Below are positions 2,527 through 10,274 of a stretch of DNA of 32,406 nucleotides, one piece after another. The notes beneath the pieces are model-generated. The model had not been told where the DNA came from. It made no database searches and saw only the letters and a list, made by a program, of their open reading frames with translations. Source of the DNA: an archaeon. Lineage in GTDB: Archaea; Thermoplasmatota; E2; UBA202; JdFR-43. The DNA lies in NCBI GenBank assembly GCA_024275755.1, contig JAJRYN010000095.1, positions 1 to 32,406 on the forward strand, given 5' to 3'. The translations under genes and the position numbers were made by a program. Numbering within the stretch: the stretch's first letter is position 1; each line of letters begins with the position of its first letter.

Positions 2527-3231
2527 TTAATCACCTCCTATTTTTTTAGATGGTAAACCATTTTCCTCATAGGGGTAACTCGTTGGATTTATATCCCCTA
2601 CAAAACCTGGAGGAGTGATGGCTATATTTATTGTTTTTATTTCAAAATCAATTGGCATGTTTACACCTATTTTATGTCCTGAGCACAAATCATCATAAAC
2701 AGCTATCAAATTATTCTCCATGTAACCTCTCACGAAGCTGGTTTCTTTGTTTCCAAACAAAAGGTCAGGCATCATTTCTCCTATGGTGTCAGTAACTTCA
2801 AATTTTGCGAATTGTCCTTGAATTTCAATATACCATGCATTTACTGTGATGACCCAAGGAGTAATGGGCGTAGGAAGAATTGGTAAACCAGTTGGACCAA
2901 AAAGACAAATGTTCTTCACTTTGAAACGATATGGAGAATTGCTATTCAGATTCTTATAAGTAAAATAGTCTGGTTCTTGATTTATAGCAAAACCTATTTG
3001 TTCTTCCCATTTTATATCTTCCGTTTTTATATCCATTTTAAGGGGCATGGTTAGCCCAAATTGCAAGGAAGGTAAACTATAAGCATCGAGTCCACTTTCT
3101 GCAGCTTTTTTCTTAGCATCTTCTCTTTCCTTCATTAAATTTCCTCCAACATTCTGTTTTTCAAGTGCTTTTGTTATATTTTCTCCAATACTTTCCTTCA
3201 GATTTTTTTTGATTGATTTAATGCATTCCAT
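2527..3231 (-). CDS. Likely C-terminal part of the large secreted protein encoded by 3198..5597 (DUF7286-like, tentative), in the -1 frame
   Basis: ORF continues coding in the -1 frame from the A8 tract at 3203..3210; TPITPWVITVNAWYIEIQGQFAKFEVTD segment. No strong SD before the candidate ATGs (3249, 3231). Confidence 0.65.
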   Translation of the reverse strand: MECIKSIKKNLKESIGENITKALEKQNVGGNLMKEREDAKKKAAESGLDAYSLPSLQFGLTMPLKMDIKTEDIKWEEQIGFAINQEPDYFTYKNLNSNSPYRFKVKNICLFGPTGLPILPTPITPWVITVNAWYIEIQGQFAKFEVTDTIGEMMPDLLFGNKETSFVRGYMENNLIAVYDDLCSGHKIGVNMPIDFEIKTINIAITPPGFVGDINPTSYPYEENGLPSKKIGGD

Positions 3232-5597
3232 ATCGTATGTACATACCATGCTCTCATCTTTGCTATTATTCTAGCTGCACAGCTGATGTAATTGCTATCT
3301 TCGCCCCTGTATCTCTCGTCGTCAATGTATTTGTATACCCTTCTACTAAATTTGTCATTAAGCTGAGAAATGTGATTTTCAATAGTTTCATTATAATCCT
3401 TTTTTCTATATTCATACCCTTCATCAATGGTTGCATTTATTTTATCATCTTTTATCATTTCCAATATCTCTCGTAATGCGAATTCAACTTCACCTCCGTA
3501 ACCTTCCAACCATTTCATAGCATAGTCTTTCTTATTCTCGTTACTCCTCCAAGTAAAGCTGGTAAAACTTGATTCTTTATGAAATTCTTTCAATATGTAT
3601 TCTCTCTTCTGTATAAAATAAGTAACGAAATCTTTAGAGATGTTATATAGATTGTAATCAAGTCTTGAATGTGCTACACCATTTGTCTCAAGAATTATTT
3701 GTTTCTTTAGGAAGGGCTTATCTACATCATTAATAACATTTACGGCAACTACATTGAAAGTTATTCTTTCTTTCCAGATTTCCGTGAATATTTTTTGATC
3801 TGTTATTTCCCATCCCACTATCCTGTCATTTACAATAATTGGTTCTTTATGAACATATGTATGGTCTCTACGCCGTGTGACTATCCAGCTTTCTTCATAG
3901 GGATATTGATTTACGATGTCTCCAGTATCCAGCTTTTTAGTAATACTAGATGCATTATATGACCACTCAGTGGATGATGCCTTTTCCCAGTATGAATCAT
4001 CTCTCGGATCATAAGGATTCCAAATATTATCTATGCTTATAGAAACTGTTGTCCTAAAATCGGCTTTATACGTTTCATCTATTAATTGTCCCAGTCGGTT
4101 AACAACTTTTTCGTTTAAATCATGTAATACCGTTCTTTCATATCCTCTTGGTTCTTTAGAAGGTATGTATTCGTATATTTTTCCACTAATATTTAGATAA
4201 GGGCCGTGATATGTATTCTCTTGTCTAATATCATTTGTTGAAGCATTTTTATAAATATATGGAGGGGGAGAAATATAAACGTACTTTTTATCATCTTCAC
4301 TGAAGCTATATCCTTTGAATTCTTGTAAAGGTTTATTTTCGCCTGTCTCCTCACAATAGTAATAATATGTGTAAATTGTTTTATATAGTATATCTTCCGC
4401 TATTCGTGTTATATTTAGTTCTCCTCTTGTCTCTGGGTCAAAAACGTTTTTTTCAGCTTCCGAGAGAACCTCCGGATTGTTACTTATAGAAAGAATAGCA
4501 TTTTCATCCATATTAGAAAAAATATCATCGATGCTCCTTTCAAGAAATGCATCCTTGACTTTTTCTTCCATTTCTTCTGTTCCAGGCATTCCAGTAGCTG
4601 CAAAATCTTTTATATTCAGGAGTAAATGAATGGCAGCAAGAGGGTCAATACTGTTAAACACCATAAATTCTTCAAATAAAAGCACTCCATTTATAAGATA
4701 ACGCAACCACCTATTATCAACAATGTTTGGAATTTTTTCATACATTCCTGCATATTGAGCTAAAGCTCTCGCCTCAGTGTATATTTCGCTCAGCAATGTA
4801 GTAAGAATGAATGCACCATTTCCATTCAAACTCTTTTCATAAATATGCGTCATTTCCATGAGGAGAGGCATTCTCGAAGTTACTAAAGTAGAAACTTTAA
4901 TAGTTTTTCTTCCTATAACCTTATTTTCATCCAGATCAATGATTTCAATTTGCAAGGGAAGACTAAATTTCCAATATGCCGCTATTTTATCTACAGGTTC
5001 GGAAAATAAACTTCTTATGCTTTCAGAAGGGGCAGATACAGGAGATGTATGTTCTCTATCCAATTTCATCTCAACTTCTTCTATTGTTATTTTTTTCCAA
5101 GTTTCTATAGGTTCATCTTCTTTTCCTACAACATTTATTGCATATCGCCCATTATTATAGGCGTTCCCCATATAATTCGCTAGTATATACGGGTTTAAAT
5201 AAACCCGAGTGATGTTTTTTGCCCAGTTCATATTAAATTTTTTCATATCTTCAAAGGTTTTCCATTGATGATTTTCAAAATCATAATTATTCCAGTCCCC
5301 TCCATTATACTCCATCGCTACCTTGCTATTTATATTTGGCTTGGTAACTGGATGTTTCCCCACAAAATCCATAGCTTTCATTCCTGCATAATTTAAAGCA
5401 ATAGATAAATCTGCTTGCATAAAGGAAAGCATGCTATCTATTTCTCCTATTTCTAAAGATAATTTAGTTTCTTCTGCAAGTTTATTTTCTAAATTTACTA
5501 TTACCGTAGATGTTACTACACTTCCAAATAACAAAAATACACCCAACACAGCAAATGGTATCCTCCCCCTCACATCATTCCAAAATTTCATTTTCAT
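3198..5597 (-). CDS. Large pilus-operon secreted/membrane-anchored protein, N-terminal part (DUF7286-like, tentative)
   Basis: 798 aa from MKMKFWNDVRGRIPFAVLGVFLLFGSVV; several N-x-S/T sequons (NIT, NAS, NIS, NAT, NET). Start overlaps the upstream stop. Confidence 0.75.
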   Translation of the reverse strand: MKMKFWNDVRGRIPFAVLGVFLLFGSVVTSTVIVNLENKLAEETKLSLEIGEIDSMLSFMQADLSIALNYAGMKAMDFVGKHPVTKPNINSKVAMEYNGGDWNNYDFENHQWKTFEDMKKFNMNWAKNITRVYLNPYILANYMGNAYNNGRYAINVVGKEDEPIETWKKITIEEVEMKLDREHTSPVSAPSESIRSLFSEPVDKIAAYWKFSLPLQIEIIDLDENKVIGRKTIKVSTLVTSRMPLLMEMTHIYEKSLNGNGAFILTTLLSEIYTEARALAQYAGMYEKIPNIVDNRWLRYLINGVLLFEEFMVFNSIDPLAAIHLLLNIKDFAATGMPGTEEMEEKVKDAFLERSIDDIFSNMDENAILSISNNPEVLSEAEKNVFDPETRGELNITRIAEDILYKTIYTYYYYCEETGENKPLQEFKGYSFSEDDKKYVYISPPPYIYKNASTNDIRQENTYHGPYLNISGKIYEYIPSKEPRGYERTVLHDLNEKVVNRLGQLIDETYKADFRTTVSISIDNIWNPYDPRDDSYWEKASSTEWSYNASSITKKLDTGDIVNQYPYEESWIVTRRRDHTYVHKEPIIVNDRIVGWEITDQKIFTEIWKERITFNVVAVNVINDVDKPFLKKQIILETNGVAHSRLDYNLYNISKDFVTYFIQKREYILKEFHKESSFTSFTWRSNENKKDYAMKWLEGYGGEVEFALREILEMIKDDKINATIDEGYEYRKKDYNETIENHISQLNDKFSRRVYKYIDDERYRGEDSNYISCAARIIAKMRAWYVHTIWNALNQSKKI

Positions 5598-6895
5598 ACA
5601 CCCCATACCATAAGAGTGATTTCTGCCCGGGTTATGCTTATTCTATTTAGTGTCCAATCATATATTATCTCTTCAAATTCCCTAATTTCTTCTATGCCTT
5701 TCTTTATTAAATCCAATATATAATGAACAAATTCCCTCACACAGTTTTCAATATAATTGCTAAGTGTTGTAGCAGCCCCTTCCACAATCTCCTTAACGAA
5801 ATAATCAGCAACATCAGTTATTAAGGAAGAAACAGTTATTTCTTCTGTGGGCGGTTTCTCTATTTCTAATTTTTCGTAAATAAATTCTCCAATTATTTTA
5901 AATGAACTATTCAGTATGCTCATTATAGGTGCTCCGACTGTTTTTTCAAATTTTTCCGTTGTTTTCTCCGTTAATTTTTCTATTATTTTTTCCAGTTCAT
6001 CAAAAATCATGTGGAGTACAATATTAACTACACCTTCAAAAATTATATTCCCTTCCTCATCTTCTAGTCCCAAGAATAGAAAGCCATTTATCAGTCCAGT
6101 GATATTTTCTACCAAACTGTTCTCCAATTTTTTCCAGCTTTCATCGCTATGTGGCATACTATCTAAACATTCTTCTATGCGCCCAATCGTATTCATATAA
6201 TATGAGGATTCTTCGATCCTCTTTCTTAATTGATTAGGCGCCAAAATTATTTCATCATCTCCTATCTTCACCTTTGGTGAAAATGGCATCGTTATCCAAG
6301 TTTTTGCCACGTACGCATTTTTTGGAGGAGAGGGACCAAGATACATTTCTCCACCAAAAGGTATTCCTATAATTGGATGCCATCTTGCTGAAAAATTAAA
6401 TTGATATTCGGTACCTAAAATAAGATTTAATTGTCGTGATATATTTTCTTTCAATTTATCGGTAAAGCTCTTTGTTAATAAATTTGCTTGTATTTTTTTC
6501 TTGTCGGCAGGTATTAAAAGCTGGCAAGCCAAACATTCTGCTATAAGTTCTCCGTAGCTCTTGTGATTTTGTGTTCTCCCTGCAATCCAGTCCAAGATTG
6601 CACCACCAAAATCTTTACTATCAAGAATATTTATCTCTTGCTTTTCAAACAAAGATTTTATTATATCTTCTGCTAAACAATAACTAAAGTTGTCTTTTGT
6701 TGTTGCTAAAAGAACTAAAAGAGTTTCATCGACTATCTCATTTTTTTCTCTTTCTATTTGACTCTCCATAATGATGTCATTTGTGAAAGCAGGCATCAAA
6801 ATTGCTCCTGAAATCGAAACCATTAGTACAAAAAGAATTGCATCTTGCATTGCTGAAAGCCCTCTTTTATCTTTTAAAAAACGGTTTTCTTTCAA
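5594..6895 (-). CDS. Pilin-like protein, class III signal (DUF7284-like, tentative)
   Basis: MKENRFLKDKRG^LSAMQDAILFVLMVSISGAIL; TTG start preceded by GGAGGGTA; C-terminus ITRAEITLMVWGV. Confidence 0.75.
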   Translation of the reverse strand: MKENRFLKDKRGLSAMQDAILFVLMVSISGAILMPAFTNDIIMESQIEREKNEIVDETLLVLLATTKDNFSYCLAEDIIKSLFEKQEINILDSKDFGGAILDWIAGRTQNHKSYGELIAECLACQLLIPADKKKIQANLLTKSFTDKLKENISRQLNLILGTEYQFNFSARWHPIIGIPFGGEMYLGPSPPKNAYVAKTWITMPFSPKVKIGDDEIILAPNQLRKRIEESSYYMNTIGRIEECLDSMPHSDESWKKLENSLVENITGLINGFLFLGLEDEEGNIIFEGVVNIVLHMIFDELEKIIEKLTEKTTEKFEKTVGAPIMSILNSSFKIIGEFIYEKLEIEKPPTEEITVSSLITDVADYFVKEIVEGAATTLSNYIENCVREFVHYILDLIKKGIEEIREFEEIIYDWTLNRISITRAEITLMVWGV

Positions 6896-6896
6896 T

Positions 6897-7393
6897 TTAT
6901 ACCCTCCATACTGTTACTACAATCTCGCCGTATCTTATGTCTCCTTCAAAGAACTTAATTGCTACTTTTCTGGATGCTGATACCATCTCCTTATCCTGGA
7001 TGCTACTTTCAGATTTTATTCTGATGGTTTCTTTTTTCCATTTTCATCATACCAGAAAAATTTGACACTGTAGTCGTAACCTACCGGATTGCAAAAATTT
7101 TTCAATTCTTCGATACTTACACTTTTTATAGAGCTCTCATCAATTAGGAGAGGATTATTTGCATCACTTGTGCTTATTATTGGGCTATCTTGCGTAGTCA
7201 ACTTCAAAACAACATAATGAGCCACTTCATATAATTCCTTGTTTTCCACTTTTTGATTATGTATATAATATACTCCTGCTATCATTGCAAAAAATAAAGC
7301 GAAACCTATCATAACTATCATTAGAGCGGGTAAGGAAGTAAATTCTTCTGCCACCCCTCTCTTATTTTTTATGAACTTTTTAAAGCTTTCCAT
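6897..7393 (-). CDS. Pilin-like protein, frame-broken at A6 tract 7032..7037. The annotated ORF stops at 7016, but coding continues in the -1 frame to TAA at 6897..6899
   Basis: Start MESFKKFIKNKRG^VAEEFTSLPALMIVMIGFALFF with SD GGAGGAGTGAT. -1 frame reads KKETIRIKSESSIQDKEMVSASRKVAIKFFEGDIRYGEIVVTVWRV*, ending 1 nt before the next gene's start. Confidence 0.75.
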
Positions 7394-9130: not shown

Positions 9131-9544
9131 TTACCACATAACAACCTTTATGGCGTTTTCTTGGTAAAATTTTTTATAGCATCCTCCCACCGTAACCCGT
9201 ATATTTAGATACCCTTCTTTTCTATACTGAGGTAAAGTAGCCTTGATGTATAAAGTGGTTTTTCCGTGGGCATTAGTTTTATTAACGCTCGCTGTTCCTA
9301 ATCCGCTAATTAAAACTGTAGCCCCCGAAATAGGATTACCCCTCGAATTTTTTACTTCAACAGAAATTTTCTCCTCCATATCACTTTCGATCACGGAAGG
9401 CTGCCAACTTACTTGCAAATCAGATGGGAACAAACAAGGTTGCAAAATAAAAGACAATATTGTAGCTAACGCAACACCCCCTATCACAATAGTTACGACC
9501 ATTCGCAAAGGTAATTCAAGTATACCACTTTTGTCTACGAACAT
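9131..9544 (-). CDS. Pilin-like protein with Ig-like (Big_1-type) domain
   Basis: MFVDKSG^ILELPLRMVVTIVIGGVALATILSF plus VKNSRGNPISGATVLISGLGTASVNKTNAHGKTTLYIKA. Confidence 0.8.
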   Translation of the reverse strand: MFVDKSGILELPLRMVVTIVIGGVALATILSFILQPCLFPSDLQVSWQPSVIESDMEEKISVEVKNSRGNPISGATVLISGLGTASVNKTNAHGKTTLYIKATLPQYRKEGYLNIRVTVGGCYKKFYQENAIKVVMW

Positions 9545-9546
9545 TA

Positions 9547-10053
9547 TTATGTATATACACGCTGTAAAATTATTCCTTCCTCGTCTATATATTTGTTATA
9601 ACCTGATGCCTTTACTTCTATTTTCATATAAGCTGTTTCCTGATTCTCTTCTAATTTTGCATTAGTCACATCTATAGGAACTGTTCCATCTCCTCCTGTA
9701 GTGCCTCCTGCTGCAGTCCCGGCTCCAGAGAGGATAACAGTTGCTCCTGAGACGGGTTTCCCTTTGCTATCTGTTACTTTTACGGTGATTGTAAAACTTA
9801 TACCTTCTATTTTGCTCGAACCCACATCACCACTTGCATCCACCAGTATTACATTTCCTGAGGAGCCATCCTTAACATGCAACTGTGGTATAATGCTTTC
9901 GCAACTAACCTTGAGAGTTCCTGGAGGATTTATATAATTAATCATTGCCAATATCGCCGCCAAAACAGCTGCTGCCACAACCACGATTATTATTAATCGC
10001 ATTGGCAGCCCTTCAATACCTCTTTTATCTTTCAACCATCTATTTTTAAACAT
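9547..10053 (-). CDS. Pilin-like protein with Ig-like/carboxypeptidase-regulatory-like domain; first gene of the operon
   Basis: MFKNRWLKDKRG^IEGLPMRLIIIVVVAAAVLAAILAM plus VTDSKGKPVSGATVILSGAGTAAGGTTGGDGTVPIDV. ATG at 10053 preceded by GGGGGAG. Confidence 0.8.
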   Translation of the reverse strand: MFKNRWLKDKRGIEGLPMRLIIIVVVAAAVLAAILAMINYINPPGTLKVSCESIIPQLHVKDGSSGNVILVDASGDVGSSKIEGISFTITVKVTDSKGKPVSGATVILSGAGTAAGGTTGGDGTVPIDVTNAKLEENQETAYMKIEVKASGYNKYIDEEGIILQRVYT

Positions 10054-10274
10054 TTTCTCCCCCAATTAAGTAACAGAAAATTATTTTTAAATTTTTGCAA
10101 CCCTATAGAGTTTCCTGATAATAAAACAAATACACCCCCTTATTTCGCCTGCAAGAGCAGATGAAAGAGAGTGCTACCAGCCATATTTGTAAGGACTTTC
10201 GAAAAACTTTCATTCATTGTCTCTCACCATTAAACCAAATTATTTCCTAAAATTATTATTTGAGAAATGCATAA

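Follow-up and report, generated by a model that had tools for sequence, protein, structure and literature searches.

A frame break at a dnaX-type heptamer in an archaeal pilin-like gene and its probable origin in a missing base

The operon and its two broken genes

Is a gene that is split at a slippery heptamer in a draft archaeal genome read through by programmed frameshifting, or is a base missing, either from the DNA of the organism or from the deposited sequence? The question is raised by a small protein gene encoding a pilin-like product in the window analyzed here, which is one whole contig (32,406 bases) from a draft metagenome-assembled genome of 1.42 Mb in 161 contigs. The valyl-tRNA synthetase of this genome has its nearest matches, at up to 94%, in MAGs labelled Thermoplasmatales or Thermoplasmatota, so that the organism belongs to the uncultured thermoplasmatotal archaea. 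The frame of this gene breaks at A_AAA_AAG, a heptamer identical in sequence and phase to that of the dnaX −1 frameshift, and a −1 step at this site opens a further coding tail.

The gene belongs to a packed operon on the minus strand (~10,065 to 1,026) that encodes pilin-like and membrane-anchored proteins and is syntenic, gene by gene, with an operon of a relative, G005. Three ORFs of the operon match the archaeal Pfam families DUF7284 and DUF7286 above the cut-off (Table 1). The first two genes of the operon (9131-10065, minus strand) lie side by side and encode pilin-like proteins that contain Ig-like (Big_1) domains; the two proteins are similar to each other, perhaps owing to a tandem duplication, and their order is kept in G005.

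Table 1. Features of the interrupted part of the operon, with positions in the window.
Feature	Position	Strand	Remarks
Pilin-like gene, zero-frame ORF	7016..7393	-	N-terminal pilin-like segment (KRGVAEEFTSLPALMIVMIGFALFFAMIAGVYY) and central part, 125 aa; premature end
A_AAA_AAG heptamer	7031..7037	-	A6 run 7032-7037; frame breaks here by −1
Pilin-like gene, C-terminal part, −1 frame	6897..7030	-	ETIRIKSES...VVTVWRV, stop 6899-6897
DUF7284-family gene, next in operon, intact	5594..6895	-	E 2.3e-8; whole in relatives
DUF7286-family gene, N-terminal part, broken at 3' end	3198..5606	-	Profile positions 2-74 of 1000
A8 run, break site of the DUF7286-family gene, also −1	3203..3210	-	Protein alignment with G005
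DUF7286-family gene, C-terminal part, −1 frame	2527..3249	-	Profile positions 894-989 of 1000

On the minus strand the junction reads GAT GAA AAT GGA AAA AAG AAA CCA TCA GAA TAA, with the heptamer, of the X_XXY_YYZ type, in frame (GGA AAA AAG, 7039-7031) and the stop codon of the zero frame ending at 7016. Shifting the frame by −1 on the A run opens ...GKKETIRIKSESSIQDKEMVSASRKVAIKFFEGDIRYGEIVVTVWRV, the stop of which lies one base before the TTG (6895) of the next gene. The first-pass annotation of this locus had described a second pilin-like gene broken at A_AAA_AAG, with a zero frame running from GGA to the TAA given above and a missed C-terminus in the −1 frame that reaches 6897 and adjoins the next TTG. 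Its reading of the codons and of the stop is exact; the break was confirmed by strand reading and by whole copies of the gene in relatives, and the one-base spacing was confirmed as well.

The DUF7286-family gene of the same operon also falls into two ORFs, the frame shifting by −1 at an A8 run. The alignment with the G005 protein runs on past this run once the shift is made. In G005 a single open frame encodes all 1,018 aa of the protein, and other relatives likewise have full-length DUF7286 frames. Both breaks in the operon are −1 steps at in-frame A_AAA_AAR.

The pilin-like gene in relatives

With the read-through protein as a query, relatives were found in 41 of 100 genomes at a loose threshold (E <= 10), and 17 relatives (Thermoplasmatota MAGs) with a full-length readable copy formed the set used for the alignment and the profile. 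In all of them the pilin-like gene is uninterrupted, with one open frame that includes the C-terminus, as an alignment with homologues, the check proposed in the first-pass annotation, made plain; none of the 17 ends at ...GKKKPSE, the terminus of the zero frame. Identity to the relatives ranges from 62% (same family) down to ~27%, the match in G005 covering residues 4-165 at 62% in one open frame. The zero-frame part can be aligned with the 17 homologues as far as residue ~120, and the alignment is unbroken across the junction. In its own genome the gene is matched in two frames, each half forming a piece of its own, while each relative gives one piece. The pilin-like gene is thus whole in relatives and broken in this sequence.

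A Ser and a Trp of the tail are nearly invariant across the family. Scored alone against the profile of the 17 homologues, the −1 tail reached 27.9-28.0 bits (E 2.5e-8); the other frames of the same region gave no score, and the best of 200 shuffled controls reached 5.9 bits. Given the continuity with homologues, the invariant Ser and Trp, and the 28-bit score, the tail is coding and forms part of the pilin-like gene, so that the C-terminus placed in the −1 frame by the first-pass annotation is recovered. It should be annotated from that frame, as should the C-terminal part of the DUF7286 gene.

Three genomes of the same genus were also searched. The match in G001, the closest of them (95% DNA identity), covers one end of the operon and breaks off after 437 bases, the contig ending inside the operon; the operon locus was not matched in G002; and the pilin-like copy of G003 is diverged but in one frame.

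The surroundings of the gene resemble the DUF7284/7285/7286 cluster (PF23955, PF23956, PF23957), as its neighbors are the above-cut-off members of DUF7284 and DUF7286 and the gene order is shared by the window operon and G005. Against DUF7285 (PF23956) the read-through product scored 14.8 bits and the G005 protein 18.2 bits, both under the curated Pfam cut-off of 27, and 7 of the 19 aligned sequences touched this family, always weakly (best E 0.0022). Within this DUF7285-like family the window copy is interrupted, whereas the other copies are not.

Frame breaks elsewhere in the genome

Frame breaks were counted by tblastn in both directions between 1.13 Mb of G005 and 705 kb (about half) of this genome, the comparison resting on 564 non-overlapping G005 ORFs (509 kb). 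Nine raw hits were obtained for this genome, and inspection showed five of them to be antisense or rRNA-like ORFs, which were left out. The remaining four are real genes, encoding the AglB-like, SecY, pilin-like, and DUF7286 proteins, and correspond to ~1 break per 130 kb of compared coding sequence; at this low rate the assembly is not grossly error-ridden. For G005, two of three raw hits were dropped on the same grounds, and a single real break in 506 ORFs was retained, in a gene for an Lrp/AsnC-like regulator with one base missing next to an A6 run. The latter lies on contig C3, near 64,930.

In each of the four broken genes the offset corresponds to one missing base, in or beside a short one-base run. 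The gene for the AglB-like oligosaccharyltransferase, named from its sequence, breaks near a T4 run (C42, reverse strand, around position 6815), and the site is not an X_XXY_YYZ slippery one. Nor is that of secY, the sole copy in this genome, which is present as two pieces on C67 and breaks at CCACCAATCC (reverse strand, around position 3390). SecY is essential, and a living cell is not expected to survive with this protein truncated. Since, moreover, the site of the break is not slippery, the assembly evidently holds one-base gaps that are absent from the living cell, and the break in the pilin-like gene is most simply explained as another such gap.

We infer that the pilin-like gene was probably broken by the under-call of a single base in a short homopolymer run, that is, by a sequencing or assembly error and not by a true mutation. 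It would be an ordinary uninterrupted gene, the deposited sequence being one base short within the A run (7032-7037), which would place the last ~45 codons in the −1 frame; the DUF7286 gene would likewise be one base short in its A8 run. The most likely origin would be a homopolymer under-call in the reads or in the consensus, as in the SecY and AglB-like genes. Two observations are those expected of a homopolymer indel artefact: the pilin-like break falls in an A6 run of a gene that relatives carry intact, and frame offsets of the same sign are seen in the only copy of secY, the AglB-like gene and the DUF7286 gene. The pattern also resembles that of homopolymer deletion errors in draft genomes, as all four breaks in the sampled half show the one-base-missing offset, though here the error origin is deduced from it. 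Against this reading stand the low rate of breaks, the closeness of two of them in one surface-structure operon, and the shared nature of these two as −1 steps at in-frame A_AAA_AAR. A simple assembly indel, which the first-pass annotation had itself listed as an alternative, fits best and is the most likely explanation.

As the main alternative, the bases could be missing from the organism, the population having one-base deletions in the A runs of two pilus-like operon genes through recent loss of function or reversible phase variation. Two breaks in one surface-structure operon, both at A runs and one of them at an A8, are consistent with this, and such clustering would fit either decay or switching by slipped-strand mispairing, pili and other surface structures being typical phase-variable products. 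The pilin-like and DUF7286 breaks, two of the four found, are 3.8 kb apart; by a rough estimate (six pairs, 509 kb) the chance of such a close pair is about 9%. The compared coding sequence contains 24 A8 runs. The presence of poly-A/T stretches of at least 7 has served as a marker of phase variation (PMC3711429), but the A6 run of the pilin-like gene is shorter than the usual phase-variable tracts. Moreover, a single base is likewise missing from the SecY and AglB-like genes, and neither of these two sites is a long repeat or a contingency locus. Since the remainder of the operon is undamaged and the −1 tail shows good conservation, any loss would have to be very recent. Overall, we consider real deletions unlikely.

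Programmed frameshifting at A_AAA_AAG

If A_AAA_AAG were a site of programmed −1 ribosomal frameshifting, or of transcriptional slippage, the full-length product would be made, perhaps alongside a shorter one. The idea is a reasonable one, since the heptamer is followed, at a suitable distance of ~6 nt on its 3' side, by a 5-bp hairpin (UCAGA/UCUGA), and since −1 frameshifting at A_AAA_AAT has been documented in an archaeon, for fucA1 of Sulfolobus solfataricus (PMC8211752). The DUF7286 break also falls at an in-frame heptamer, A_AAA_AAA. The pilin-like gene resembles fucA1 in that both are archaeal, are interrupted by −1 at an A-rich heptamer and have full-length relatives; in the case of fucA1 the related full-length genes carry a run differing by one A (PMC8211752). 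However, the frame break of fucA1 recurs in two strains and its full-length product has been demonstrated (PMC8211752), whereas the break described here is a single occurrence in a genome where the essential SecY is broken too.

Several further results count against this possibility. First, all homologues are read in one frame, and the heptamer was found at the junction position in none of the 17. Second, the heptamer is unexceptional here: in the comparison of about half of this genome with G005, intact, homology-supported genes contain 115 in-frame copies of A_AAA_AAG, and the intact alignments a further 119 of A_AAA_AAA; in the window AAAAAAG occurs 39 times, as against 31 +/- 5 in shuffles. 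Third, the stem-loop and the upstream stimulator that the first-pass annotation had suggested looking for did not stand out: the downstream fold has z = -1.36 and, over 60 nt, is equalled or bettered by that of 34 of 107 control heptamers, so the hairpin is not above the controls, and no SD-like stimulator is present upstream, in AATTTTTCTGGTATGATGAAAATGG. In contrast to a dnaX-type system, then, the heptamer is unconserved, the fold is ordinary, the SD-like element is absent, and the tail is the normal C-terminus in relatives.

With an unconserved heptamer, 115 intact in-frame copies of it, and unremarkable stimulators, the break is probably not a site of programmed frameshifting. Most frame breaks that occur as singletons are expected to reflect indels or errors of sequencing (PMC3711429), and the pilin-like break is such a singleton. 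The mechanism put forward in the first-pass annotation, in which the heptamer acts as a dnaX-type signal, is not supported, as homologues are uninterrupted and lack the heptamer, no stimulator stands out, and breaks at non-slippery sites occur elsewhere in the genome. We regard frameshifting or slippage at this site as very unlikely. It is highly improbable that the lineage sets a ratio of short to full-length products by −1 frameshifting, ribosomal or transcriptional, at the A runs of both the pilin-like and the DUF7286 genes.

If true, recoding at this locus would add a rare archaeal −1 case. The main value of the locus, with a missing base as the preferred explanation, is as a caution for draft genomes: A-rich genomes contain many in-frame copies of the dnaX heptamer, and its presence at a single break in a draft genome is therefore weak evidence of recoding.

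Finally, the short zero-frame form (...GKKKPSE), with the tail separate or non-coding, has almost no chance of being the true protein: the zero frame is open to 7016, but this end is contradicted by the homologues, which continue in frame through a tail holding the nearly invariant Ser and Trp.
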